This document shows positions 4,468-18,322 of a DNA stretch of 64,000 nt, in pieces. The position numbers and the translations under genes were made by a program. Origin of the DNA: Nitrospira sp. (lineage in GTDB: Bacteria; Nitrospirota; Nitrospiria; Nitrospirales; Nitrospiraceae). The DNA lies in assembly GCA_022226955.1 (NCBI GenBank), contig CP092079.1:2280984-2344983 (forward strand), in the 5' to 3' direction. A model generated the notes under the pieces. That model was not told the origin of the DNA, searched no databases, and saw only the letters and a program-made list of their open reading frames with translations. Numbering within the stretch: position 1 is the stretch's first letter; the number at the start of each line of letters is the position of its first letter.

Positions 4468-4543
4468 TGGTGAGTCGGCTGGGACTCGAACCCAGGGCCC
4501 TCGCCTTAAAAGGGCGATGCTCTACCGACTGAGCTACCGACTC
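4468..4543 (-). tRNA. tRNA-Lys (anticodon TTT)
   Basis: The minus strand folds as a full cloverleaf: acceptor GAGTCGG/CCGACTC, D-arm GCTC/GAGC, anticodon stem TCGCC/GGCGA with loop CTTTTAA (anticodon TTT), T-arm CTGGG/CCCAG with TTCGAGT, discriminator A and an encoded CCA at 4468-4470. The 5' half, from the anticodon stem to the first base, lies in a 44 bp repeat whose other copy is at 18279-18322. The functional gene is therefore a hybrid: its 3' half is the original chromosome and its 5' half comes with the integrated element. The stop codon of the integrase overlaps its first two bases. Confidence 0.96.
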
Positions 4544-4546
4544 ACG
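4503..4546 (+). repeat. attL: left 44 bp direct repeat (inside tRNA-Lys)
   Basis: Begins GCCTTAAAAGGGCGATGCTC and is identical to 18279-18322 over 44 bases, diverging at both ends. It covers the tRNA from its first base into the 3' side of the anticodon stem, plus three bases upstream of the tRNA. Confidence 0.95.
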
Positions 4547-5675
4547 CCTGTTGTTCTGCGGATTTATGTGATTCTGCTGATGGCTCGGAAACCCTTGTGC
4601 CAGTGCTTGTGCCATCCAGGGAGGATTGCCAGTATTGGCTGAGCTGTGTCGTCGCCATCCGGAGCCTTCTATCATACTCCGGTGTGTCGTGGCTATAGAG
4701 GCTTACGAGGCCGGGGAGCTTGTGGCCCAGCAGGATCTCTCGCATCTCAAAATCCACCCCGAGGCCCTTGAGGGCTGTGGCGAACGTATGGCGCAGGTCA
4801 TGAAACGTGAGGCCATCGATCTGACATCGTCCACAGAGCTTTTGGAATTCATGGCTCAGGCTGGTGGGGCGGCTCCAGTTATCAAAGATGCGTTTGCGCT
4901 GCAAATACACCACGCCAACGGTCAACGCGTCAGCCGCCATCATATTGATTGGGATCTTGGGAGGGTTGCCCTTGGTGCGGGTCGTCGGGGCCGGCAGATG
5001 CAGCCACGGGCCGTCTGGAGCCGAGCGGATCCAGCCTTGCTCAATCGCAACGAGTTTACCCTGACGGAGTCCGATATTGATCGCCAGCACGATAGCCCTC
5101 CGCAAAGGTGGGCTGGCCTTCCCGAGGAGGCTCCTGAGTTCGTCGCGGGTAGCGACTCGCTCACGCTTAATCCCTTGGGGCACCGGCATGGCCCTGAGCC
5201 GGTTTCGCTCTACGTGCTCGTGCTCCACCGCTAGGTTGATAATGGCCGACAGGACCGCGCATTCGCGCTCGATCGTTCCATCCGCAACGGTTCTGGCGCC
5301 GGCGAGATCAACCAGACGCTGTCGGTGGTCAATATAGTCTTCGCCGTGGCTCAGGCGGATCTCCCGCAGAGACAGGCGACCGAAAAATGGAACCAGGTGT
5401 TGCTCTATGAGTTTCTGGTTTCGCGCGATCCCTGTTCGGCCCTTGATCCGCATACGCTTCAGATAGGTTGGAATAAATGCCGCAAATGTCAGGCCGTCGA
5501 CAGCCGACGCTTGGTGAACTTGATCGTGGATCTGTTGGATGACCGTCAGGGCTTCTCGACGTTCCTGGTCTGGCGTCAAGTTATACCCCAAGGTCGGTCG
5601 GTAGCGTATCCCCTGATAGTGATAGTCGAGGCGTGATCGCAGGCCCATCAGACATGGCTTGTGGTCGATCTTCAT
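4542..5675 (-). CDS. Tyrosine recombinase / integrase
   Basis: A 377-residue phage-type integrase that would recombine the tRNA-Lys attachment site. An N-terminal arm-binding and SAM-like core-binding region (to about 165) precedes the catalytic domain with Arg204 (GLRQGK), His292 and Arg295 (FHDLRHTFAT), His318 (LLGHK) and nucleophile Tyr327 (VSLYSHD); Lys235 or Lys240 is the likely beta-hairpin lysine. All catalytic residues are present. Box I has GLRQGK where most family members have a Glu. The ATG at 5675 overlaps the upstream stop (ATGA) and has GAGGAA upstream. It is the last gene of the leftward train and its stop lies within attL, so its transcript reads straight into tRNA-Lys. Confidence 0.95.
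   Translation of the reverse strand: MKIDHKPCLMGLRSRLDYHYQGIRYRPTLGYNLTPDQERREALTVIQQIHDQVHQASAVDGLTFAAFIPTYLKRMRIKGRTGIARNQKLIEQHLVPFFGRLSLREIRLSHGEDYIDHRQRLVDLAGARTVADGTIERECAVLSAIINLAVEHEHVERNRLRAMPVPQGIKRERVATRDELRSLLGKASPPLRRAIVLAINIGLRQGKLVAIEQGWIRSAPDGPWLHLPAPTTRTKGNPPKIPINMMAADALTVGVVYLQRKRIFDNWSRPTSLSHEFQKLCGRCQIDGLTFHDLRHTFATALKGLGVDFEMREILLGHKLPGLVSLYSHDTPEYDRRLRMATTQLSQYWQSSLDGTSTGTRVSEPSAESHKSAEQQA
4594..4614 (+). repeat. Tandem CTTGTGCCA, possible integrase arm sites (left)
   Basis: CTTGTGCCA occurs at 4594-4602 and 4606-4614, 12 bases apart, 48-68 bases inside the left repeat. A third copy is at 18174-18182, about 97 bases inside the right repeat. Repeats near both ends fit arm-type sites of phage integrases. 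The left pair also codes for the Gly-Thr-rich tail of the integrase, so coding constraint is an alternative. Confidence 0.3.
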
Positions 5676-6304
5676 CGCGCTTCCTCTGGCTCCGCGAGGG
5701 CCTGGGTGATTGCAGCCTTGACGTCTTGGCACTCCCGCCCACGCTTCCCATAATCCACATCTGTCGAGGTCCACCCCTGGATGTACTCCTGCGCGATCTC
5801 CAGCGCCTCCCGAAGCCGCGTGACGTCGGCCTCAACGTCGCGCATAGGATGCTTCGAGCAAACCTTGATATGTGCAGAAAGATCTTCATTGTGCTCGTCC
5901 ATCGGCGATTGCTCACCACAGAAGGCGCAGTACGTGAACGTACTGTCAGGGGTTTTCAGCGCTTTCAGTTCCGCCACCTGCCGCTCCAGCTCATCCCCTT
6001 TCGCCAACAGGTCATCGCGCTCGACGGTCACAGACGCGAGGTCCTGTTTCGTCCGCTCCAATACCGCGCACACCTGCTCATAGGCGGAGGCCGTGGGATA
6101 GGGTTGCCGGTCATGGGCGATGGCAAGATCGCGTTCCTCCTCCAATTCCTCCACCCGCGTCAGCAGATCGGTGTAGGCGTCGAGGAGCCGCACGACTTGG
6201 CAGCGTGGGTGGACCTCCCAACAGGCCTCGTAATGCGTGCTGCCGGGATTCGTCGCCCAGGCCTGCCGTAATGCGTGGATCTGCTCGCGCGTTAGGATGG
6301 TCAT
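5672..6304 (-). CDS. Coiled-coil C2HC zinc-finger protein, unknown function
   Basis: A 210-residue protein I do not recognise. Residues about 45-118 are strongly charged and heptad-like (coiled coil). A probable zinc finger follows: Cys126-X2-Cys129-X15-His145-X3-Cys149. A second helical segment covers 155-175. The ATG at 6304 has GGAGG five bases upstream and is preferred over one four codons earlier. Its stop overlaps the integrase start, so the two are translationally coupled. A role as DNA-binding or accessory factor is possible but unsupported. Confidence 0.75.
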   Translation of the reverse strand: MTILTREQIHALRQAWATNPGSTHYEACWEVHPRCQVVRLLDAYTDLLTRVEELEEERDLAIAHDRQPYPTASAYEQVCAVLERTKQDLASVTVERDDLLAKGDELERQVAELKALKTPDSTFTYCAFCGEQSPMDEHNEDLSAHIKVCSKHPMRDVEADVTRLREALEIAQEYIQGWTSTDVDYGKRGRECQDVKAAITQALAEPEEAR

Positions 6305-6387
6305 GACTTCCTCCATTTCTCAATCACCGTCTGGGCACGCTATAGTGCTCCGGCCCACATGCCAACGATAAGAATCCATTCCACGTC

Positions 6388-6661: not shown

Positions 6662-7036
6662 TTAATAATCTGGGAACGCCGTCTCCGCATTATTCGCGGT
6701 AATGAATACCTCGAAGCTCAGCGCGTCACTCGTCCGCACGTCCTCCCCCTCTTGAGGCTTACGGGTGTAGACCACACGATTCCTCACATCCACCACGACA
6801 TCATCATGCTCGAAATCATCTCGCTCGGTCGAAATCCCAAACCCCGCGGCATCATCCACGCGCCCCTTCACGAGTTCGCAAAACACCATCCGACTCAAAT
6901 AGGGGCTGTTATCCCATCGTTGACGACGGGCCAGCGCCGACCGCACCACCGTCAGCAGCTCCTCGCCACGCCATTGGGTGTAGAAAAATATTTCTTGATT
7001 GCCGTCCTTCATCACAATGTTTCCACGGTCCCCCAT
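6662..7036 (-). CDS. Conserved hypothetical phage/plasmid-type protein
   Basis: A 124-residue protein beginning MGDRGNIVMKDGNQEIFFYT, with the later motif FCELVKG and a GISTERDDFEHDDVVVDV stretch. This layout recalls a family of uncharacterised proteins seen in actinobacterial and phage genomes (from memory, not searched). AGGAGGGG precedes the ATG at 7036, which rules out an upstream extension. Function unknown. Confidence 0.7.
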   Translation of the reverse strand: MGDRGNIVMKDGNQEIFFYTQWRGEELLTVVRSALARRQRWDNSPYLSRMVFCELVKGRVDDAAGFGISTERDDFEHDDVVVDVRNRVVYTRKPQEGEDVRTSDALSFEVFITANNAETAFPDY

Positions 7037-7053
7037 GATCGCCCCTCCTATCG

Positions 7054-7173
7054 TTAAAACTGCCCCGCTCCATTCTCTCGCAACAACGCCCCCGGCAACA
7101 CACACCAGGCAAGGGTAATCGCGTTCACCGTGCCAGCTGAGATCTTCATGAACTGCCGACAGGAAATACTCAT
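7054..7173 (-). CDS. Small hydrophobic protein coupled to the DUF5131 gene
   Basis: A 39-codon frame whose ATG (7173) overlaps the stop of the DUF5131 gene as ATGA and which ends at TAA 7054-7056. The product begins MSISCRQFMKISAGTV and has one short hydrophobic stretch (NAITLAWCVLPGALL). Stop/start overlap is a common coupling signal in this train, but I cannot identify the protein and it could be fortuitous. Confidence 0.4.
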   Translation of the reverse strand: MSISCRQFMKISAGTVNAITLAWCVLPGALLRENGAGQF

Positions 7174-8216
7174 CGCGGAAATTCCCGAATCCGCAAATCG
7201 GCCGGCCACTCGGTCATATCCTTGCCTTTTCGGTTTCGGCAATGGATCTGCCCGGTATCATCCATCGGCGCGACAGCGGCATTGAATGCGCCCCATTCTC
7301 GCGCTGTCACTGAGCCCTCAACCGCATACGGCTTCGCCCCGAGCTGTTTGACGAAACAGGGCACCCCTGCCTCATCGCATTGCTGCACAACCGACCTGAT
7401 CCAGGCCACGTCACAGGGCCTGGCACGCGGGCCGCTTTCTCCGCCGCACACGACCCAATTGAGCCCGCCGGTCGCATTGGTTTCGGTATTATTCTCCGTG
7501 CTGCATTTGCCGCAGCTCTCTCGCAACAACTCTCTCCCGCAGCCCACGCAGTGATAGAGCGGGCGCGGGAAAAACTTCGTCACGTTCACCGCGCCCAACA
7601 ACGGTTCGAGGCTCACCCACCGCACGGCGGCGGGAGTCTGCAACAGAATCGGAATGCGCTCGTCCGCCGTCACCTGATCCTCCACCGACACGCCCAGGTG
7701 GACGTTGGGAAGGGGGCCATGCACCGCCAGCCCCATGCTTATCGCGTCACGGTTCTCCTCAGGGTGCTGCTCTGAATAGATGCGTTGCGCGTGCCCTTCC
7801 ACGAGTGACCAGAAAAAATAGTCCTTGTCGTCCAACAATTGCCGCATCCGCTCCGGTCGCTTTGTGAGAATCTGAAACGTGTACTGCGGCGACAGCGCCA
7901 TAACTGCGAACACTTCATGAATAAAATCCTGCGGCACATCCTCATGAAACAAATCGCTCATCGAATTCACGAAGATCCGTCTTGGTTGCCGCCGGCGCAA
8001 CGGTGCATCCAAGATCTCCGGCACCAGCGTGATCCTCCCGGTCCACCGTGGTCCCTGCGCCCCAATCTCCGTCAGGCCTGCGTAGGGTTGGCCGGGGCCG
8101 CTAAACCGATGCGCCTGCTTCATCGCATAGCAGTGTTCGCAGCCAGCGGAGACCATCGCGCAACCACGAACCGGATTCCAGGTAACGTCGGTCCATTCAA
8201 TGTTCGTGCGCGTCAT
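7170..8216 (-). CDS. DUF5131 (phage Gp37/Gp68) family protein
   Basis: A 348-residue member of the Gp37/Gp68 family, known from phages and mobile elements, with no settled function. It opens with MTRTNIEWTDVTWNPVRGC and has a Cys19-X6-Cys26-X2-Cys29-Tyr motif resembling metal or Fe-S cluster ligands. The family blocks FVNSMSDLFHEDVP, FQILTKRPERM and VVCGGESGPRARPC are all present. An insertion at about 215-235 carries two CxxC pairs (HCVGCG, SCGKCS), a likely zinc ribbon that not all relatives have. The ATG at 8216 has only a weak upstream GAGG. It is followed by a coupled 39-codon frame. Confidence 0.88.
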   Translation of the reverse strand: MTRTNIEWTDVTWNPVRGCAMVSAGCEHCYAMKQAHRFSGPGQPYAGLTEIGAQGPRWTGRITLVPEILDAPLRRRQPRRIFVNSMSDLFHEDVPQDFIHEVFAVMALSPQYTFQILTKRPERMRQLLDDKDYFFWSLVEGHAQRIYSEQHPEENRDAISMGLAVHGPLPNVHLGVSVEDQVTADERIPILLQTPAAVRWVSLEPLLGAVNVTKFFPRPLYHCVGCGRELLRESCGKCSTENNTETNATGGLNWVVCGGESGPRARPCDVAWIRSVVQQCDEAGVPCFVKQLGAKPYAVEGSVTAREWGAFNAAVAPMDDTGQIHCRNRKGKDMTEWPADLRIREFPR

Positions 8217-8274: not shown

Positions 8275-8901
8275 TCATCCCCCCACCCTCCTAAATCCGA
8301 TCACCCAGACCCAATCGTTGCGCGCCCAGCTACCTTGGCCGTAGATGGAGTCGTACAATTCCGCGAACGCGCCAAGGGCACAGATCGCATCCTCACACCC
8401 CTCCGCCCGCGCCTCCTCCGGTGTGATCGCCTGCACCCACTCAATGCGCAGCTCGGTAATCTCCACCACGGTGCGAGCCGCCCACTTCGGCATAAATCGC
8501 GCATGCCGACGGAACCAGCCATCAATCGCGAGCGGCCCGCGCAAGACACGGTTCGGCGCACGGTCAGGAAATCGCGCGCCCCGCGATGGATCGCAGGCGA
8601 ACCGCCATTTCTGCCGCCCCGTTTTTGTGGTGCCATTCTTCTTCCAGTGACCGTAGAGATAGTGAGGCTCGTTGATTCGCAGCCGATCCCCCACTTGACC
8701 ATAGGGACACCGGATCGACGCTCTTGCGGACCCCCTGCAACGGGAGAACTGCGCAAGTTCCCCGTCAAACAACATGAGGTCCCACTCATTGGGACGCTCG
8801 TTGATAATGGAGAGTCCACTCGTCCGCCGCGTCATCGTCTTCGTGCCGTCGTGACACTTCTGCGCGTTGCCCTGGGTCATGAGGATCGGGCGTTCAGTCA
8901 T
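8275..8901 (-). CDS. ASCH-like phage accessory protein
   Basis: A 208-residue protein. It begins TERPILMTQGNAQKCHDGTKT, typical of proteins with an ASCH/PUA-like fold, which often start with a PILF..M...I..G.KT block. Later blocks (YGQVGDRLRINEPHYL, MPKWAARTVVEITELRIEWV, ITPEEARAEGC, WARNDWVWVI) match the uncharacterised phage proteins of this type. ASCH domains are thought to bind RNA or modified nucleotides; no substrate can be inferred. GAGGAGG precedes the ATG at 8901 and the start overlaps the previous gene by 8 bases. Confidence 0.75.
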   Translation of the reverse strand: MTERPILMTQGNAQKCHDGTKTMTRRTSGLSIINERPNEWDLMLFDGELAQFSRCRGSARASIRCPYGQVGDRLRINEPHYLYGHWKKNGTTKTGRQKWRFACDPSRGARFPDRAPNRVLRGPLAIDGWFRRHARFMPKWAARTVVEITELRIEWVQAITPEEARAEGCEDAICALGAFAELYDSIYGQGSWARNDWVWVIGFRRVGG

Positions 8902-9103
8902 GGTACTGGTCCTCCTCACGATCATTTTCCCGCTGCTCTAGTTTCTCTAGTTTGTTGTCTATCCCACGCACGAGCAAGTCCAGCCCCCACCAGATTGTGC
9001 CGATCATGAACCCTATCCCCACCGCCCACAGTTCCCATCTCGAAACCGTGACTCGTCGCACTCCCCCCTCTGTCGTCCGTCGTGGTATTCTGCGTCCAAC
9101 CAT
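8894..9103 (-). CDS. Small single-pass membrane protein
   Basis: A 69-residue protein with a basic N-terminus, one transmembrane helix at about 25-46 (LWAVGIGFMIGTIWWGLDLLV) and a charged helical tail (IDNKLEKLEQRENDREEDQ). GGAGG lies 9 bases before the ATG at 9103. Its end overlaps the ASCH-like gene start by 8 bases. The topology resembles small phage membrane proteins, but no holin or spanin function can be claimed. Confidence 0.65.
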   Translation of the reverse strand: MVGRRIPRRTTEGGVRRVTVSRWELWAVGIGFMIGTIWWGLDLLVRGIDNKLEKLEQRENDREEDQYHD

Positions 9104-9178: not shown

Positions 9179-9841
9179 TTACAACCGCGCTATCAGCTCC
9201 TTCTCCGCTTCGCCGTACGCCCAATTCAGCTCCTGCATCTTGGCGTCGTCACCACCCTTGATATCGGGGTGATGCTGGAGGGCCAGCTTGTGGTATCGCG
9301 CTTTGACGGTGACGGCGAAATCTGGCGTTTCATCTTCCGCGAACCCCATCACGGCCCGCCACGTATTCGGCGCGGGCAACGCTTGAAATCCTTGGAACAC
9401 CCGCTCGAGAATGACGGCTCCCCCATGCCGTTCAATCGCACGCATGGCCTCCAGAGTCGCCGCAATCGCCGCCAGGTTGTCCGCGACCGTCGTGTATTGG
9501 TCGATCGCCATCACCTTATGCTGGGCATCCTTACGCTTCTTCCAATACACCGCTACGCCTTGATCGGCAGGGGCCTTCTGATTCGAGCGCGGAAGCCCAT
9601 CCTGGCGCAGCTCAAGATTGGTCGAAATTACGATGTCATCCTGGTGCATCCCCATCTTCTGAAGCTGTTCGAGTCCCCGCTTGGTCCCTTCGGCAATCGT
9701 GACCCGTGCTGTGCGGTAGTACCCGTCTCCAGGATTCATCGTCGATCGATTCCACACTTTCTTACTAAATCGCGCCTGCTGCCGATCCGCCGCCGCCGTC
9801 CGCTTCCATCCGGCCGGCCACGTCAGGGGATAGTTCGTCAT
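9179..9841 (-). CDS. J-domain protein of mobile-element type
   Basis: A 220-residue protein with a C-terminal J-domain: helix II KARYHKLALQHHPDIKGG with the diagnostic HPD, followed by MQELNWAYGEAEKEL. The first 150 residues have no domain I recognise (TMNPGDGYYRTARVTIAEG, DIVISTNLELRQDGLPRSNQ). J-domains stimulate the ATPase of Hsp70 chaperones, so this may recruit host DnaK. The ATG at 9841 has AAAGGAG seven bases upstream. It sits 16 bases after the methyltransferase gene. Confidence 0.8.
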   Translation of the reverse strand: MTNYPLTWPAGWKRTAAADRQQARFSKKVWNRSTMNPGDGYYRTARVTIAEGTKRGLEQLQKMGMHQDDIVISTNLELRQDGLPRSNQKAPADQGVAVYWKKRKDAQHKVMAIDQYTTVADNLAAIAATLEAMRAIERHGGAVILERVFQGFQALPAPNTWRAVMGFAEDETPDFAVTVKARYHKLALQHHPDIKGGDDAKMQELNWAYGEAEKELIARL

Positions 9842-9857
9842 CGTTGCTCCTTTCCGC

Positions 9858-11345
9858 TCATACCGCATTCTGTTGTGTGGTGGCCCCTACCCAATTCCGA
9901 CCGGCTGCGGCCGTGATGTTGAATCGATCCAGCAAGTCTTTCCGCTTCCAGACCAGATGCACCGTGCCCTTCTTGAAATAACGGATATGAAAGTAGGCAC
10001 TCTCGCAGGTGCCAGGCTGTCCACGTTTGGCATGGAAGGCATCTTGAAGGGACTGCACGACAGTCTGACACTCCTCGAACTTTGTCCCGTCCAGCACACA
10101 CAGCACCCGGTCCAGATCGCTATACACCGCTCCGGCATCTCGGTAGCTCCAAAGATCGAAGTGGCCATAGCTGAACCGGCAGCCATACGGAAACACGAGT
10201 TTGCGGTTGACCTTGTACGAGTCGTTGGTCTTCCACCCTGTCCGCCCGTCCCCACTGCCGATATCGCCAGTGGTGTTGCCCTTGTAATGCTGCGTCAACG
10301 CGACAAAGACGGTCCAGACCGACTGTTCAAACAGCTTCGTCCGTTGGAGAAAGATGTTCGTCAACGTCCCCTTGATGTTCTTCGCCGTGAATGGCACGGT
10401 GCTGCCTCGCTCCAAATCCCACAGTAATTCCTCGGTCTGTTTAGAGTCGAGCCACTTGGTAAACTCGACTTGCTCAAACACATGCATCCAGGCCCCGCGC
10501 CGAAGCTTGGTAGCAAACTCCGCTCGCGCGGCCGTCACATTGGTTTGGGCGAGCTTCATAATCCCGCCCATGTCTGGGCCTTCGCCATCACCTCGCGCGG
10601 CGCGGATCGGTGCGCCCAGCGCCTCCATGAACACCGAGGCTTTGCGGATATGCGCGAACCCCTTAAACATCTCTTCGAGCGCCTGATCGTAGTAGTGCTG
10701 CATGTTGCCCAGCGTATCGCGGAGCGCAGGCATTGACTCTGGAGAGCCAATGTCGTCATCGACTGATCGCTCCGTGGCTCGCGCATCCCAGAGATCAATT
10801 CGATCATCCCCCGACGTTTTCTTTAGGTAGACCAGCGCCACCTGCACATCCGTGGCCCGTTCCGCTTTCGCAAAGCAGGCCCCGAGTGATTCCATGGTGC
10901 CATGCTCGGCAATGAGCGTGACCAGTCGTTTCCGCTCGGCAGTATAGGGATTGTCGATTGTCTCCTGATTCAGCAGGCAGACAATTTCGCCTGTATGCAG
11001 AAAGTCCCAGGCCTTCAGGAGATGCGCGGCCCCTTCTGAAAACGGCGGGTTCATCACAATGGCGTCGTAGTACGAGACTCCGGCATAGGTGAGCCAGTCA
11101 TAGCCGACGATGGTTAGGCCTTCCTTGGCACGTAAGACGTTGACCAAATCAGGCTGCGCCTCGATGACATCGATGCGGTATCGGCTACGGCCGTGGTAAC
11201 CCATCTCGCCAGCTCTGAGCACGGCCATGGCCAGATCGCCTTTCCCGGCGCTCGGCTCCAGGAAGTGGATCGCCTCCGGATTGATCTTTTTCAGCATGGC
11301 GTTCGCCACAGTTCTCGGCGTTGGATAAAAATCAGGTCCGAACAT
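9858..11345 (-). CDS. DUF4942 N6-adenine DNA methyltransferase-like protein
   Basis: A 495-residue protein with an N-terminal class I methyltransferase fold: FYPTP near the start, the SAM-binding motif FLEPSAGKGDLA at about 28-40, an acidic loop (VIEAQPDL) and the catalytic NPPF at about 98-101 typical of N6-adenine enzymes. The C-terminal half (YFHIRYFKKGTVHLVWKR-like end) matches DUF4942, which accompanies such domains on phages and islands. No restriction enzyme lies next to it, so it may protect element DNA from host systems or act as an orphan methyltransferase. The ATG at 11345 has only a poor ribosome binding site. Confidence 0.85.
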   Translation of the reverse strand: MFGPDFYPTPRTVANAMLKKINPEAIHFLEPSAGKGDLAMAVLRAGEMGYHGRSRYRIDVIEAQPDLVNVLRAKEGLTIVGYDWLTYAGVSYYDAIVMNPPFSEGAAHLLKAWDFLHTGEIVCLLNQETIDNPYTAERKRLVTLIAEHGTMESLGACFAKAERATDVQVALVYLKKTSGDDRIDLWDARATERSVDDDIGSPESMPALRDTLGNMQHYYDQALEEMFKGFAHIRKASVFMEALGAPIRAARGDGEGPDMGGIMKLAQTNVTAARAEFATKLRRGAWMHVFEQVEFTKWLDSKQTEELLWDLERGSTVPFTAKNIKGTLTNIFLQRTKLFEQSVWTVFVALTQHYKGNTTGDIGSGDGRTGWKTNDSYKVNRKLVFPYGCRFSYGHFDLWSYRDAGAVYSDLDRVLCVLDGTKFEECQTVVQSLQDAFHAKRGQPGTCESAYFHIRYFKKGTVHLVWKRKDLLDRFNITAAAGRNWVGATTQQNAV

Positions 11346-11408
11346 GTATGCGTCTCATTGGATAAGATTTATCAGGTCCGACTATTCGGCTACGGCTGTG
11401 TTGGGCCT

Positions 11409-14219
11409 TCATCCCAACACCTCCACCTGGCTGCCACGCTGGTCCTTCGTCACCATGATCTGGCTGGGGAACGTTGCCTTCATGGCATCGACGTGTGTGA
11501 TGACCAGGATCTGCTTGAAATCGTCCCCCAGAGCCGTGAGGCATTCCCGCAGCTGGTTCAGTCCGTCCTCATCCAAGCTGCCGAGACCTTCATCGATCAC
11601 AAGGGTTTCGATCTTTGATCCGGCACGCCGGGCCAACAGCTTCGAGAGGCCGATCCGGATCGCCAGGTCGAGCCTGAATCGCTCCCCTCCGCTGTAGTTC
11701 TCGAGCGGCCGCTCCCCGGCCTGATCACGAACCGCAATATCGAGCGTTTCGGCGAGGCCGTCCCGGCTCTTCAGAGCTTTTTGCGTATCGAACCGAACCC
11801 TCATTCCAGTCCGACTTACCTTACCCAGTATGGTATTCGCTTCATACTCCAAGATAGGGAGGGCGTTTTCCAACACGAGGGTCGGGATCATCGCGTAGGC
11901 CTCGGCTAGGGATCGGTATTGCCTGAGGTCTCGCTCCATCGTCTCGATCTCCAGGCGCAGCTCGGCGCCGGCCGCGACTCTCTGCTCGGCCTGCTCAACA
12001 GTGGCCTTGCGTTTCCCGATGGCCTCGCTCAACCGGGCCTGATCCCGGACGTTATCGGCCTGACAGGATTCGACATGCCGCAGGCGCGCGAGGGTCTGGT
12101 CGATCTCTGCCTGAATATCGTCGATCCCCATCAGCTCTAGCTCCTGGGCCTTGATGATCTGTTCCAGGCTGGCCCGTTCTTCGATCACGCGGGCCAGGTC
12201 TCTGGCGACCACTGGGAGATCTCGCTCGGCCGTCGAAATCTGTTCGGTTATCTGACCGATAGAGAGGGTCAGGCTCTGGATCCTGGTGGCTGTATCGGCC
12301 CTGGCCCGTTCGTTCTCTGTCAGCGCGACCAGGAGGCTCGCCAGGCCCTGCTGGACCCCTTGGAGGTCGAGCAGTTTGGCCTCCAGGGAGGAGATGTTCT
12401 TTTGGGCAATATCCTGGGCCGTGATCGCGTCGTCGAGGTCTTTGCAGACCGCCGGGATCTCCCTGGCGGCCAGCTCCAGCTCAGGCACCAAGACCGTGAA
12501 ACGCTCGAGGGCTTTCATGGATGTCCGGTGGGTCTCGATTGCGACTCGCCCCAATTGGGCTTGCGCCTGGATGGCGTCCCGCTTCCGCTGTCCCGTCGCA
12601 ATTCGCTCAGCCCAATCGACCAACCGGAACGCCTCAAGCTCAGCCGTCATCTGCACCCGTCGCTCAGCCAGGTCAGGACGCTGCGCGGCTATAATATCAG
12701 CGTCACTTTTCAACCTGGCATCTAGGGCCTGTTGCTGCCGTGGGATCCTGGCTTGAGCCTCGACGGCGTTCCTCGTGAACTGGCAGCGGCCCTGCAGGAC
12801 TGGGTCGCAGGGGACTTGCCCAAGGAGCCGTGCCTGCTCGCGATCGTATTCTATTTCTCTGGCTATATTCGCGGTCTGAATGTGATAGGCCGCAACCGTT
12901 TTCTCTAGGTCTAGCTGGATGACCGCCATGGTCGTCTCGATCGTCTGGATGCGTGATTGGTTCGCCCTGGCATCCAGGAGATACTCAGTGGCACTAGAGA
13001 TCAATCGCTCCCGATCGGCCTGCTCTTCCTCGATTTCGACCATCGCACGCGTAGCATCTGCATGCTCCTGCACTTTCGCCTCGATCGTCTGGCGGTTTTG
13101 CAGGATCTTCTCCCAGCGGCCCATTTTCTCTTGGAGCTGCTGGATCCTGGGCTGCGCGGCGCGTTGCTCGGCCCGGCGCCCGTCTAGCTCGGCCGTCAGG
13201 CTATTCGCCGTAATGGCCTGGTTCTCCAGGGAGGCCCGGTCCCGCAGGAGCTGCTCGCGTGTCTCGGCCAAACGCGCGAGCAGCTCCTCTAGGTGCGTAA
13301 TGGTCAGGCGATCATGATCCACCACGGCTTGTTTGGCCTTAGCCTCCTCCATCCGGCCGTGCCGCTCCAGCAGCTCCTGCTCCTGCTGTCGGAGGCGTGG
13401 GAGCTTCGTCAAGTTCAGCGAACATTGTTCTGTGATGGTGGATAGGCTATCCATCCGGCCCTGCAACGTAGCCCTTTGCTCGAGGTGCTGGGCATGGGCC
13501 GCATCCAATGCTCGATATGCCTCGACGGCATCCTGTTGTTGCTGGGCCAGGGCCTGGATCCAGGCTCGCTCATCAACGAGCTGGTTCTCAGTGGCCTGCA
13601 GATCGTTCAGTTGGGTGGCCTTGACGGTCTTCCGGTCCTCGATCCTGGAAGCGGCTCGGCTGGCGGCCTGTTTCAGAATTGCGTATAGATCGAGCCGCAA
13701 GATGGAGGCCAGGATCGTTTTTCGCTCTGATGGGGTCGCTCGACTGAATCGATCCGCTTGCCCTTGCAGGAAGAACGCCGTCGCGGTCAAGAGGTCCTGA
13801 TCGCAATTCAGCAGTTGGATAATTTTCTCCTGGGTCTCGTTAAGCCGTCCGCCGCTGATCGGAGTCCACTCGACATCGACCGTGCCGGTCTCTTCTGTCT
13901 GGCCACCCTGTTGGACCTGGAGTTCCAGGTCACTTTTGCCGGCTTTGGTCCTGACGCTGCGCTTGCGTATGACCCGGTAACGTTGTCCAGCGAGCGAAAA
14001 AATCACCGAGACCATCATGTCGGTCTCGCCGGTCATGATCATGTCGTCCATACTACTTCGAGCCTTCCCGTATAGTCCCGCTAAGACGGCATCGATAAAA
14101 GCCGTGCTCTTGCCAGCGCCGTTCTGCCCCAACACGACGGCCTGAGCGATGCGACGCAGATCGATTGAGGCCTCTCGGTATGATCCAAAATTCTTCAGGT
14201 GAATCTGTTCAAGTTTCAT
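11409..14219 (-). CDS. SbcC/Rad50-like SMC-type ATPase
   Basis: A 936-residue ATPase of the SbcC/Rad50 class. Walker A GQNGAGKST is at 31-39 and the Q-loop region FFLQGQADRF near 150. Long coiled coils follow, with a central Cys pair (CDPVLQGRC) where Rad50 has its CxxC zinc hook; here the spacing is seven residues. The C-terminal lobe has signature YSGGERFRLDLA and Walker B TLVIDEGLGSLDE. GGGAGA precedes the ATG at 14219. It lies 55 bases after the SbcD-like gene, and the two should form a nuclease-ATPase complex acting on DNA ends or hairpins. A phage-type recombination function or a defence role are both possible. Confidence 0.9.
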   Translation of the reverse strand: MKLEQIHLKNFGSYREASIDLRRIAQAVVLGQNGAGKSTAFIDAVLAGLYGKARSSMDDMIMTGETDMMVSVIFSLAGQRYRVIRKRSVRTKAGKSDLELQVQQGGQTEETGTVDVEWTPISGGRLNETQEKIIQLLNCDQDLLTATAFFLQGQADRFSRATPSERKTILASILRLDLYAILKQAASRAASRIEDRKTVKATQLNDLQATENQLVDERAWIQALAQQQQDAVEAYRALDAAHAQHLEQRATLQGRMDSLSTITEQCSLNLTKLPRLRQQEQELLERHGRMEEAKAKQAVVDHDRLTITHLEELLARLAETREQLLRDRASLENQAITANSLTAELDGRRAEQRAAQPRIQQLQEKMGRWEKILQNRQTIEAKVQEHADATRAMVEIEEEQADRERLISSATEYLLDARANQSRIQTIETTMAVIQLDLEKTVAAYHIQTANIAREIEYDREQARLLGQVPCDPVLQGRCQFTRNAVEAQARIPRQQQALDARLKSDADIIAAQRPDLAERRVQMTAELEAFRLVDWAERIATGQRKRDAIQAQAQLGRVAIETHRTSMKALERFTVLVPELELAAREIPAVCKDLDDAITAQDIAQKNISSLEAKLLDLQGVQQGLASLLVALTENERARADTATRIQSLTLSIGQITEQISTAERDLPVVARDLARVIEERASLEQIIKAQELELMGIDDIQAEIDQTLARLRHVESCQADNVRDQARLSEAIGKRKATVEQAEQRVAAGAELRLEIETMERDLRQYRSLAEAYAMIPTLVLENALPILEYEANTILGKVSRTGMRVRFDTQKALKSRDGLAETLDIAVRDQAGERPLENYSGGERFRLDLAIRIGLSKLLARRAGSKIETLVIDEGLGSLDEDGLNQLRECLTALGDDFKQILVITHVDAMKATFPSQIMVTKDQRGSQVEVLG

Positions 14220-14274
14220 GGCGGTGTCTCCCTTGGTTGCGGTCGCATTACATGGCCCACAGATCCATCAGATA

Positions 14275-15456
14275 TCAACCAACCTCTTGCTCGATAGCCC
14301 GATGTTTGGCCAGCAGCTCCGGCAACTCGGACGGATCGGCGTGCCCGGTTAGGGCCCGCAGGAGCGCGTCGTCGGTGCTCATGACGGCCGTCATGCCGGT
14401 ATCGCGCGCGCGGGTCTCCTCGACCCGGTCGACCGAGACCTGAAACCAGGGGGTGCTGGCGGCCAGACGGTCGAGTGTCGGCTTGATCGCCTGGTGTTGC
14501 TCATCGGTCAGGCGGTCTCGGAATCGCCAGACAATGCCGTCCTTGAGACCCTCCGGGTAGGCATTGGCGGCCTCCAGGGATTGGCTGGTGATCGTGCAGT
14601 AGGTCCGGGCGTGCGGGTTGTGGACGTGCCGCACGACCGGCGGCTGGCCGGCCTCCAGCTCGACCACGTTGAAGCCCTTATCTTCATTCTCTTCACCGAA
14701 GCTGGCCCGCATCAGGCTCCCGCTGTAATGAGCATTGGGCGTGATCACCTGGGGCTGGTGGATGTGGTTGAGTGCCACATAGTCGAAGGCGCCGAAGTCG
14801 TCCCGCGGGATCAGGATGTCGTGCGAGAGGTCCCTTGGCTGGTCTCCCACGCGGGCACTGGCGACCGAGCCGTGGGCCAGCAGGACATGCAAGACGCCGG
14901 ATTCCCGCTCGGCCGCAAAGTTCCGCACGATCGCGGCCAGGCTCTGATTGATCAGAGCCGTGATCTCCTCGGGGCTCTTGTCGATCAAGGCCTCCTGGGT
15001 GAGGAGCCGGCCCTTCGTGGGATACGGCAGACAGCAAATCCGCACCGGTGCTCCTCCGATCGTCATCAACAGGCTCTCGGGCCGCTCCACGACGTAGACG
15101 TTGTCGAGGCCCTTTAGGGCCTCCAGGGCCGTCGCGTCCATCGGGTTCTGGCTCATGTCGTGGTTCCCTGGAATCATCACGACCGGCATGTAGTCCGTGA
15201 GGCGCTCCACAAACGACCTCAGGATCCGGATCTCGTTGGGATGAGGCTTGTGGGAATCGAACACATCGCCCGGCAGGAGCGCCAGGTCGAATCGCTTGGC
15301 TTTGTTCTGCGTGGCATGGGCGTAGACGAACTCCAGGCTCTTGTGCAGGTCCGTCAGGGCCAGATTTTGTCCAGTGTCGGGATCGATCGCCATCTTGCCG
15401 GCGAACGTCGCGCTGTTGTTGGGGTGAATGTCGCCGAGGTGCAGGGCTCTGATCAT
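14275..15456 (-). CDS. SbcD/Mre11-like metallophosphoesterase nuclease
   Basis: A 393-residue calcineurin-type phosphoesterase, the nuclease partner of the SbcC-like protein. Metal-binding motifs are complete: Asp9 and His11 (LGDIH), Asp64 (PGDVFDS), Asn98-His99-Asp100 (PGNHD), LLAHGS and ALNHIHQP. A C-terminal capping region of about 130 residues follows. Two adjacent ATGs are possible; 15456 is chosen because GGAGG then lies 6 bases away. Mre11/SbcD enzymes cut DNA ends and hairpins with Mn2+; the substrate here is inferred. Confidence 0.9.
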   Translation of the reverse strand: MIRALHLGDIHPNNSATFAGKMAIDPDTGQNLALTDLHKSLEFVYAHATQNKAKRFDLALLPGDVFDSHKPHPNEIRILRSFVERLTDYMPVVMIPGNHDMSQNPMDATALEALKGLDNVYVVERPESLLMTIGGAPVRICCLPYPTKGRLLTQEALIDKSPEEITALINQSLAAIVRNFAAERESGVLHVLLAHGSVASARVGDQPRDLSHDILIPRDDFGAFDYVALNHIHQPQVITPNAHYSGSLMRASFGEENEDKGFNVVELEAGQPPVVRHVHNPHARTYCTITSQSLEAANAYPEGLKDGIVWRFRDRLTDEQHQAIKPTLDRLAASTPWFQVSVDRVEETRARDTGMTAVMSTDDALLRALTGHADPSELPELLAKHRAIEQEVG

Positions 15457-15506
15457 CATGAACCTCCAGGTTAAATGGCGCACCCTACGAAAGCCCGCCG
15501 TAGGGG

Positions 15507-16589
15507 TTATTCAAACGGGAGCGGATCGCCTCCAGGCTTCTGGACATCCGGCATGACGACTAGCCGCTCGAAAAATCCTGACCGCTGTGGGGCCGACCAT
15601 TTTTCCATGTCGCCCGTGACCTTCCCGCGATAGCCCTTCTGCTGAATCAGACGATCCAGAACCTCTTTTTGGCCCTTGGGGTCCGCCGCCGAAAAATCCA
15701 TCCGGAGGCCGTCGTCCAGGGCTGGGAGCGAACCGACAGGAGGGCTATCGGGCGGGGCATGAAATTCGATCGCCGGGGCCGTGGCTGCCGTCTGTTCTGG
15801 CAAGGCCACGAGGGCCACTTGCGGTTCAGTGGCCCGCTGGACCGGCTGATAGAGCTGGTCGATGGCTCCGGCGGCTTGCGCGCGCAGAAAAGCCCGGTCC
15901 TCAGGATGATTCAGATCGAATTCGGCGACCAGCTTTGGGAACACAAACGGCTTAGCCAGTTCGGCTGGCTTATATGTCTCGCGGATCCCAATCGACTTAA
16001 TTGCCCTGGCCATCGCGCCGGTCTGGGCTCGACTCAGCAGGTGCTTTTTGATCTGCAGCGCTTCCTGCCGGACCTGCTCCCTGATCCAGGCTTCGGTGTC
16101 CGGGAAGGCCCGGAGGAATCCAGGGCCATCCTTCGGGTCGTCGAGGTACTTCTGCGCCTTCTCCCGCTTGCTGTCGGTCAGCTCCTCGATGACGTTCTCC
16201 ATCCGGATTTCCTTGTCGCCCATGATTTGACGCCAGGTCCCGTCGAGCGCTTTCACCCGCCCCACCATCCGGTACTCACAGCGGTTCGGATCGCGGGCAC
16301 CATCGCGGCGTCCGCACTGTTTAGCGTCCCACTGGATCCCCATGGCGTCGGCCAGTTTTTCCCAGCCGATCGCGGAGAGCGAGACGCCGCCGCCTTTTTG
16401 CGGATATACTTCTTTATTGTCTGGGTTTGGGTCGATCTGGACCACCACCACGACTGGTCGATGCATCGCCGGGATCGTTTGGAGCGTGACAGGAGCCAGG
16501 ATGTGGGCTCCTTTTTGTTTCCACTCAGCCAGCTGCTCGGTAGTCATTAGGGCCGCATCATCGGCAATGGCCGGAAGGTCAGGCCTCAC
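15507..16589 (-). CDS. Element protein of unknown function, possible annealing/recombination factor
   Basis: A 360-residue protein. The segment LLSRAQTGAMARAIKSIGIRE followed by YKPAELAKPFVFP resembles the TGA..RAIR..LGI pattern of phage single-strand annealing families (ERF/Rad52-like), but the similarity is short and I hold it loosely. The C-terminal 90 residues are Pro-rich, then a compact RLIQQKGYRGKVTGD domain. The start is a GTG at 16589 inside GTGA, overlapping the stop of the small regulator, so both are coupled. Position just upstream of the SbcD/SbcC pair fits a recombination module. Confidence 0.6.
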   Translation of the reverse strand: MRPDLPAIADDAALMTTEQLAEWKQKGAHILAPVTLQTIPAMHRPVVVVVQIDPNPDNKEVYPQKGGGVSLSAIGWEKLADAMGIQWDAKQCGRRDGARDPNRCEYRMVGRVKALDGTWRQIMGDKEIRMENVIEELTDSKREKAQKYLDDPKDGPGFLRAFPDTEAWIREQVRQEALQIKKHLLSRAQTGAMARAIKSIGIRETYKPAELAKPFVFPKLVAEFDLNHPEDRAFLRAQAAGAIDQLYQPVQRATEPQVALVALPEQTAATAPAIEFHAPPDSPPVGSLPALDDGLRMDFSAADPKGQKEVLDRLIQQKGYRGKVTGDMEKWSAPQRSGFFERLVVMPDVQKPGGDPLPFE

Positions 16590-16858
16590 GGTTTCGGGGC
16601 CCCTACTGTCTTACCCGGTAGGGTAATTGTTGGTGAAAAAAACGTATCCGTCGAAACCTTGAGGGCTTGGGCGATGGCCCAGATGGTGTCAGCCCCCCAG
16701 GTTTCCTTGGAAAACTTGATAGAAATGTGCTGGCGGCTCCAATCGTACCCAATGGCCCTGAGGCGCCGCCCCAGTTCTGCTTGGGTCCATCCACGGTCGA
16801 TCAAGATGGCTTCGAGCCGATCCCCCATATGCGTCCTGGGCAATGGTTTCAGTTTCAC
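16586..16858 (-). CDS. Cro/C1-type HTH regulator
   Basis: A 90-residue protein made almost entirely of an XRE-family helix-turn-helix (about 13-66: GWTQAELGRRL, WSRQHISIKFSKETWGADTIWAIAQAL). It is the first gene of the leftward element operon and its stop overlaps the next start. A strong promoter with an inverted repeat between its -35 and -10 lies upstream (16922-16950), and the perfect palindrome TTACCCGGTAGGGTAA lies in its own 3' end. Autoregulation is therefore likely. CGCAGGAGGACC-type sequence precedes the ATG at 16858. Confidence 0.88.
   Translation of the reverse strand: MKLKPLPRTHMGDRLEAILIDRGWTQAELGRRLRAIGYDWSRQHISIKFSKETWGADTIWAIAQALKVSTDTFFSPTITLPGKTVGAPKP
16611..16626. promoter_or_regulatory. 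Palindrome TTACCCGGTAGGGTAA
   Basis: TTACCC-GGTA-GGGTAA is a perfect inverted repeat within the 3' end of the small regulator gene. Its TACCC/GGGTA half-sites are those of the promoter operator at 16926-16944, so it may be a second site for the same repressor. Confidence 0.45.
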
Positions 16859-16921
16859 GTTCGGTCCTCCTGCGATCAGTTGCTGCTCGTTCGTGTCGGT
16901 TGTTAGGGTGGCCGCGGTGTT

Positions 16922-16950
16922 GTTTTACCCTACCAGGTTGGGTATGTCAA
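16922..16950 (-). promoter_or_regulatory. Promoter and operator of the leftward element operon
   Basis: On the minus strand TTGACA (16945-16950) and TAAAAC (16922-16927) are 17 bases apart. The spacer is framed by the inverted repeat TACCC-N9-GGGTA (16926-16944). A repressor bound there would block RNA polymerase, the classic arrangement for a phage-type switch. Confidence 0.65.
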
Positions 16951-16976
16951 CGCTCAAATACTACTATGTAATTAAA

Positions 16977-17029
16977 TTGACATTTCAGCGTCTCGGCGGC
17001 TATCTTTTCTCGGTAGTCTTACTAGGTAA
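16977..17029 (+). promoter_or_regulatory. Promoter and operator of the divergent regulator
   Basis: TTGACA (16977-16982) and TATCTT (17001-17006) are 18 bases apart and drive the gene at 17077. The palindrome TTAC-TAG-GTAA (17019-17029) overlaps or follows the start of transcription and is a candidate operator of related but not identical sequence to the leftward one. Confidence 0.55.
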
Positions 17030-17076
17030 CGTGCAGTGGAAACCGTTGATGTATCCCATATTTATCGAGGCGTAAC

Positions 17077-17640
17077 ATGAGTGCTACGCGATCACATCTC
17101 GGAAAGGTCATACGCGAATCCAGAGAGCACTTAAGTTGGTCTCAGGATCAATTGAAAGTGGAGTTAAAGCTCGCCCGAGCGATCTCGATCTCCAAATGGG
17201 AGCGCGGCGAAGCACCTGTCCCAGTACATCATTGGCAGGACCTGATGCGGATCCTCAATATTCCCAAACCGTTATTTTTAGAAGCCGCGACAAAAGATCG
17301 ACACCGACAGCTATCGCTATTCATGGCCCTCAGTCAGTCGGTCCGTGGTTCAGCCAGCGAGATCGGCTCGTTTACGTGGGAATATATTGTGCGGGCGTTG
17401 GCCCCAGAGATGGCAGCCAAGATGGAGCAGCTCCGGGAGCGGTATCGAGATCTGTCGCCAGCTGAATTTGCCCAGGCGGCGTTTTCATATTTCCTCGAGC
17501 AAGCATCGGAGGGATTAGATCGAAATAATCGCCCCATCGCGACCCGCAACGTTTCGAACAGCCCACCGGCTTCAGTCCCTATCCAGGGGGCGACCGAGCA
17601 GTTGCGTGGACGGACAGCCCTCAAAAAACACCATCGCTGA
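17077..17640 (+). CDS. HTH transcriptional regulator, divergent
   Basis: A 187-residue protein with an N-terminal XRE-like helix-turn-helix (about 8-60: HLSWSQDQLKVELKLARAISISKWERGEAPVP) and a mainly helical C-terminal region (about 95-150). It is divergent from the leftward operon and shares its control region, so it is probably the counter-regulator of the switch. It lacks the Ser/Lys dyad of LexA-type self-cleaving repressors, so induction would need another route. Confidence 0.82.
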   Translation: MSATRSHLGKVIRESREHLSWSQDQLKVELKLARAISISKWERGEAPVPVHHWQDLMRILNIPKPLFLEAATKDRHRQLSLFMALSQSVRGSASEIGSFTWEYIVRALAPEMAAKMEQLRERYRDLSPAEFAQAAFSYFLEQASEGLDRNNRPIATRNVSNSPPASVPIQGATEQLRGRTALKKHHR

Positions 17641-17714: not shown

Positions 17715-18155
17715 TTGGGCGGAATTCTTCCGTGTCTCGATTGCGCGACCATCTCGACCTGCCGTGGCCTCCAACCGAATTTCTGGATCGACATTACCCA
17801 TCCAGGCCATCTCCTAGATGCCCCGACCGGTTGGACCGCAGAGGTCGATGCCATCCTGGGGGTCCCGGCCGGGAAACTCCCTAGGTCCGTCTCCTCGTTT
17901 ATCCGATTTGTGCATCCTGACGACCTTGGACACGTCATCCAGATAATGGCGCAGGCGATGGCCCGTAGAGAGCCCTATAGGGTCTCCTATCGGCTTTTTC
18001 AGGACGATGGGGATGTAATCTTCGTGCGGGAGAATACCATCGTAGACTGCGATCAGGACGGCCAGCCCGTTCGGCTCATCGGCAACCTCCGGGACATCAC
18101 GGCTCAAGTGCAAACCTGGATAGCCCTACGGGACCAGCCGATCCCGGACGAGTAA
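17715..18155 (+). CDS. Single PAS-domain protein, start uncertain
   Basis: A product of up to 146 residues with one PAS fold of the PAS_3 type: VDAILGVPAGKLPRSVSSFIRFVHPDD, RVSYRLFQDDGDVIFVRENT and RLIGNLRDITAQV. No kinase or other output domain is attached. There is no ATG or GTG in the first part of the frame; TTG at 17715 is the best start, and the frame stays open upstream to 17529 without a start. It may be a gene with a rare start, a fragment of a larger sensor, or cargo at the right end of the element. Confidence 0.55.
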   Translation: MGGILPCLDCATISTCRGLQPNFWIDITHPGHLLDAPTGWTAEVDAILGVPAGKLPRSVSSFIRFVHPDDLGHVIQIMAQAMARREPYRVSYRLFQDDGDVIFVRENTIVDCDQDGQPVRLIGNLRDITAQVQTWIALRDQPIPDE

Positions 18156-18278: not shown

Positions 18279-18322
18279 GCCTTAAAAGGGCGATGCTCTA
18301 CCGACTGAGCTACCGACTCACG
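18279..18322 (+). repeat. attR: right 44 bp direct repeat (tRNA-Lys 5' half)
   Basis: Identical to 4503-4546. It is a dead copy of the 5' half of tRNA-Lys still attached to the chromosome upstream of the original gene; the rest of a tRNA does not follow. The ancestral empty site can be read as 4468-4502 joined to 18279 onward. Confidence 0.95.

Follow-up and report, generated by a model that had tools for sequence, protein, structure and literature searches.

The genes for a 360-residue protein (P360), an SbcD/Mre11-like nuclease and an SbcC/Rad50-like ATPase, lying in that order on the minus strand (16589 to 11409), are a conserved phage unit. This unit is carried here by an integrated, phage-derived element of 13.8 kb in the complete 3.64-Mb chromosome of a Nitrospirota bacterium. 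We think it likely that the three-gene core served homologous recombination in a temperate phage lineage, as a module acting by end resection and single-strand annealing, and that the element is a cryptic prophage or satellite. An integrated element with a recombination module of phage type is an ordinary setting; the new point is a candidate annealing family consistently paired with SbcCD.

Within the window (the whole stretch of 64,000 nucleotides analysed), the ends of the element were a perfect 44-bp direct repeat (4503-4546 and 18279-18322), the sequence of which is the 5′ half of a tRNA-Lys gene (4468-4543) plus 3 bases. A query joining the two flanks was aligned without a break over ~280 bp, at 87-90% identity, in six congeneric genomes with an intact empty site (G259, G245, G115, G285, G088 and G270), whereas in the host genome the same query was split, with the 44-bp core at both ends. 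The insertion and its empty site were thus shown directly and, with an integrase and direct-repeat att sites, the element is an integrated prophage or satellite. All genes named in the original prediction were open on the minus strand at the positions listed below; the divergent HTH gene (17077-17640, plus strand) and the exact borders of the element had been overlooked there. The features of the element were as follows:

4503-4546, no strand: left copy of the 44-bp att core (perfect direct repeat, tRNA-Lys gene, empty site in congeners)
4542-5774, minus strand: tyrosine integrase (PF00589 1.6e-8, phrog_1 8e-38)
5672-6316, minus strand: open reading frame of 214 aa, without a PHROG match
6662-7105, minus strand: open reading frame of 147 aa, phrog_31860 (9.6e-12)
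7170-8216, minus strand: DUF5131 protein (phrog_2045), accessory (PF07505 2.6e-79, phrog_2045 1.3e-94)
8275-8925, minus strand: phrog_874 protein, accessory (7.4e-37)
9179-9868, minus strand: phrog_9210 protein with a partial C-terminal J-domain, accessory (phrog_9210 1.7e-43; DnaJ 1.3e-4, under the cut-off)
9858-11345, minus strand: DUF4942 DNA methyltransferase without a partner nuclease, a passenger (PF13708 4.9e-39)
11409-14219, minus strand: SbcC/Rad50-like ATPase with a CX7C hook at residues 471-479 (phrog_77 3.6e-67, motifs)
14275-15483, minus strand: SbcD/Mre11-like nuclease (TIGR00619 over the cut-off, motifs)
15507-16589, minus strand: P360 of the phrog_13782 family, candidate Rad52-superfamily annealing protein (phrog_13782 1.7e-18, models, fold searches, linkage)
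16586-16858, minus strand: small Cro-like HTH regulator (PF20075, phrog_3)
16859-17076, no strand: divergent intergenic region between the opposed HTH genes, a likely switch or operator (one sigma-70-like match, plus strand)
17077-17640, plus strand: divergent HTH regulator, candidate repressor of the element (PF13560 4.8e-6; a homologue adjoins the G151 copy of the unit)
18279-18322, no strand: right copy of the 44-bp att core (direct repeat, empty site in congeners)

From left to right the element thus ran from the integrase through small frames and the DUF5131, phrog_874, phrog_9210, DUF4942, SbcC, SbcD, P360 and Cro-like HTH genes, all on the minus strand, to the divergent HTH gene. The Cro-like HTH gene overlapped the GTG start of P360 by 4 nt (...CCGTGAGG...), which makes the translational coupling proposed for this pair plausible. 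Between the candidate repressor gene and the right att site there was an open reading frame (17715-18155, plus strand) that looked PAS-like by eye and had no PHROG match; it may be cargo or a fragment. The DUF5131 protein (7170-8216, minus strand) matched the PADLOC candidate-defence models PDC-M41B and PDC-M30B, and its family, phrog_2045, also occurs in phages. Extra ~45-bp copies of the 3′ half of tRNA-Lys were seen in many congeneric genomes (around ten in G288). The att core of the present element is the 5′ half, so different elements seem to use both ends of this gene.

No structural, packaging or replication-initiation genes were recognised by Pfam or PHROGs among the element proteins scanned, and by these profiles the element is not a complete prophage with structural and packaging genes. 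Instead of a decayed prophage it may be a phage satellite, which would exploit a helper phage and make use of the module; this is compatible with a recombination module, and we regard it as possible but lean the other way. The 13.8-kb length, the perfect att repeats, the presence of two regulators, the lack of structural genes and the intactness of the integrase and the long frames fit a satellite. So does the integrase position, which is distal in the operon here and upstream of, and divergent from, P360 in L060, L066, L067 and G151. However, the element showed no gene for a primase/rep, a small terminase subunit or capsid remodelling, 175 genomes of the family gave G151 as the single other case of the unit, and an internally deleted prophage would look alike.

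The core had been described as a repressor, an uncharacterised protein, SbcCD and a methyltransferase; the conserved unit was instead the three genes P360-SbcD-SbcC. Homologues of SbcD and SbcC followed P360 in the same order and orientation in all 15 loci found with P360 queries that had downstream sequence, namely 11 virus contigs (L059-L065 and L067-L070), three genomes (G151, G190 and G186) and a MAG contig (L010); the window itself was excluded and a cut contig (L066) was left out. Two further P360 genes lay directly upstream of SbcD in contigs reached through SbcD (L021 and L027). SbcD and SbcC were fused as one gene behind P360 in L067 and L068, the L070 contig stopped within its SbcDC frame, and at some loci other genes (e.g. 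RuvC-like or PIN) intervened. Many phage SbcD-SbcC pairs had no P360 in the flanks read; the association therefore seems to run one way, P360 going with SbcCD. L025 was not counted among the P360 loci, as the family HMM failed to recover it.

With P360 or a four-row alignment as query the first two virus scans were empty; matches came through SbcC and then with a five-row alignment. A tblastn search of 50,697 phage records gave nothing with the P360 of the window and one weak match with a distant homologue. Natural phage SbcD-SbcC fusions, some immediately following a P360 homologue, were seen at L067:6644-10519, L068:6840-10409, L014:38-3472 and L021:7905-11420; such fusions are known (PMC3175470).

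The best virus relative of the unit (L017/L059) was a 62-kb contig with a P360 64% identical over the alignment. It encoded terminase, portal, tape measure and tail proteins, a DnaD-like loader and SSB, and a homologue of the Cro-like HTH of the window lay near its unit; this gene content places the unit in a tailed phage. The order in G190 and G186 was P360-RuvC-SbcD-SbcC, including a RuvC-like resolvase, and neighbours there were read by eye as ribonucleotide reductase (RNR) and dUTPase; an SSB gene was also among the neighbours at other loci. One of the suggested roles, recombination machinery of the element's own, is therefore favoured by the phage-conserved unit, by its recombination and nucleotide-metabolism neighbours and by the virus contig with structural genes.

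The SbcD protein (14275-15483) matched Metallophos of Pfam (1.7e-10), phrog_100 (6e-30) and TIGR00619 (98 bits, cut-off 78), and the phosphoesterase motifs GDIH, GDVFD, GNHD, AHG and NHIH were found; by motifs and family profile it is assigned as an Mre11/SbcD nuclease. Its true start is probably an internal ATG ~9 codons in, where the homologues begin. At its two ends the SbcC protein (936 aa) carried a Walker A motif (GQNGAGKST), the signature YSGGE, a Walker B motif (LVIDE) and an H-loop, and it is assigned to the Rad50/SbcC ATPases. It scored 166 bits with TIGR00618, against a cut-off of 478, and had CX7C rather than CXXC; it was therefore filed as a phage-type SbcC-like protein, not a canonical one.

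The CX7C hook noticed earlier is real, C471-X7-C479 being the only closely spaced Cys pair in SbcC, but it failed as a marker of the cassette. It was also present in SbcC of Moorella phage MTATph1, P360 not being detected in the 14-kb stretch read there, and hooks of P360-linked SbcC ranged from CXXC to CX8C. CX7C was found in G151, L059, L060, L067, L070 and L027, CX8C in G190, G186, L065 and L069, CX4C in L063 and L064, and CXXC in L061, L068 and L021 as well as in SPO1 and phage G; SbcC of L062 had no hook. Wide hooks were enriched in P360-linked SbcC (13/16 vs. 2/26; Fisher p = 2e-6 by a hand tally ignoring kinship).

P360 fell into phrog_13782, a family listed in PHROGs with function unknown, P360 and its homologues matching it at 1e-17 to 1e-100. 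It had no Pfam match at E 0.01, and searches of NCBIfam and PDB sequences gave nothing useful. The ERF, Rad52 and RecT models named beforehand as those to compare with P360 gave no sequence match: RecT (PF03837), ERF (PF04404) and Rad52 (PF04098) found none of five P360 homologues at E 5. A low-power hhalign comparison of the P360 alignment with only three ERF sequences showed no similarity; ERF/Rad52 searches of 295 Nitrospirota genomes returned too few sequences for a good profile, and the last virus scan, queried with ERF, contributed a single further one.

AlphaFold models of P360 were made from 12 aligned homologues and, for the core, from 16 (mean pLDDT 90.9, pTM 0.81). As modelled, the core comprised a hairpin (strands 38-40 and 46-48), a helix (50-60), a short strand (62-63) and two long antiparallel strands (80-90 and 96-106), a helical insertion of ~50 residues and a helix (161-175), taken as alpha3, bearing the most conserved motif, A-x-T-G-A-x-x-R. 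The Rad52 superfamily is characterised by the order beta-hairpin, alpha2, antiparallel three-stranded sheet and alpha3 (PMC9870868), and the predicted order of P360 agrees with it, order rather than packing being compared.

The structural match to Rad52 was weak but consistent. In a Foldseek search of PDB with the core model, ranks 1-11 were all human RAD52 (E 0.008-0.04, TM 0.2 to <0.45), and VIA-align gave Z values of 6.0-7.1 for human RAD52, 7.0 for yeast Rad52 and 5.2-5.5 for Mgm101 over up to ~130 residues, all Z values (≤ 7.3) and Foldseek PDB E values (≥ 0.008) being in a range also reached by unrelated folds. With the full model, human RAD52 occupied ranks 1-13. Rad52, RecT, Sak3 and Erf proteins were among the top matches in a viral structure library, where the best E (9e-4) belonged to an unnamed protein and 1.4e-3 to a Rad52-annotated one; the sole fold match over the strict threshold was that unnamed protein. 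Since nearly all fold scores were below threshold, membership of P360 in the Rad52 superfamily, as judged from models, is probable rather than proven.

An SSB-like C-terminal tip (D-x-L/I-P-F and near variants) was present in 6 of 18 P360 homologues, which are not independent of each other, including that of the window (D-P-L-P-F-E), and in 0.8% of background frames; the other 12 were without it. A Nitrospirota protein of the ERF family (L109:1126-1959) had such a tip as well. The only SSB found in the host genome (L113:1405-1818) appears to end in ...EPSYEYDEQH, without the usual DDDIPF tip.

We propose that the two divergent HTH regulators hold the operon off until induction. SbcC-SbcD, by family and motifs an ATP-driven nuclease of the Mre11-Rad50 type, would then open hairpins or blocked ends and expose single strands at the DNA ends of the element or phage and at broken forks. 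P360, with its predicted fold and its SSB-like tip, would coat the exposed strand and anneal complementary strands, and the outcome could be circularisation, concatemers or recombination-dependent replication. The DUF4942 methyltransferase, acquired separately, probably modifies the DNA of the element.

P360 might instead serve phage SbcCD as its own cofactor (one that binds ends, acts as a loader or inhibits a host nuclease), like the accessory factors of Mre11-Rad50, rather than as an annealer. Strict linkage to SbcCD predicts a partner and no particular activity, and the structural scores of P360 were weak. We nevertheless consider a cofactor unlikely: in two libraries the top structural matches were annealing proteins, and the presence of RuvC, SSB and RNR genes nearby is in keeping with a full recombination module.

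The methyltransferase had been counted as part of one cassette with the repressor, P360 and SbcCD. It had, besides the DUF4942 profile, the motifs EPSAGKG and NPPF. With the methyltransferase as query, none of eight virus contigs had P360 or SbcCD within the flanks, and the unit was absent from both readable loci in related bacteria (G290 and G217). The unit being absent from all ten readable DUF4942 loci, the methyltransferase is a passenger, and the notion of a defence cassette is corrected accordingly. In two related genomes (L105:4559-7412 and L106:8517-11370) a DUF4942 methyltransferase 70% identical to that of the window adjoined a primase gene of phage type. A joint role of SbcCD, P360 and the methyltransferase in defence against phages or plasmids, cutting unmethylated foreign DNA and methylating self, is unsupported and very improbable: PADLOC models (LmuB, mad3, AriA and others) matched the SbcC ATPase, and mad2/MTase_II weakly the methyltransferase, but these were shared single domains only (ATPase, MTase, HTH, DUF5131) with no complete system, methyltransferase and unit travel apart, and a virus contig with structural genes carries the unit.

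Returning to the recombination module, we suggest tentatively, as something that could well prove true, that phrog_13782 is an undescribed Rad52-superfamily annealing family working only with phage SbcCD, a one-operon counterpart of Mre11-Rad50-Rad52 in which the wide CX4C to CX8C hooks common among its SbcC partners would belong to the adaptation. An uncharacterised phage family is given a testable function and tied to SbcCD, for which phages offer no other evident annealing partner. Should P360 prove to anneal DNA, the operon would be a compact bacterial counterpart of the Mre11-Rad50-Rad52 route and P360 a possible recombineering tool for bacteria lacking one (e.g. nitrite oxidisers).

Among known systems, the SbcCD part resembles phage SbcCD and T4 gp46-gp47 nucleases (phrog_77 and phrog_100) in its operon order (SbcD first, then SbcC), its full set of catalytic motifs and its phage recombination context, but differs in CX7C for CXXC, a 936-aa SbcC and, always ahead of the pair in this lineage, P360. 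With the Rad52-superfamily annealers (Rad52, Sak, Erf, RecT and Redbeta) P360 shares, as modelled, the succession of hairpin, helix, three strands and helix, RAD52 being the top-ranked though sub-threshold structural match, but it has no sequence match to a named family, a helical stretch inserted ahead of the final core helix and an SSB-like tip in a third of its homologues. RecT and Redbeta genes sit beside a recombination nuclease gene. The P360 gene likewise adjoins one, but its partner is SbcCD and not a lambda-type or RecE-type exonuclease. By analogy, an end-processing nuclease with a Rad52-like annealer would recall the eukaryotic pathway of Mre11-Rad50 plus Rad52, here as a compact phage operon.
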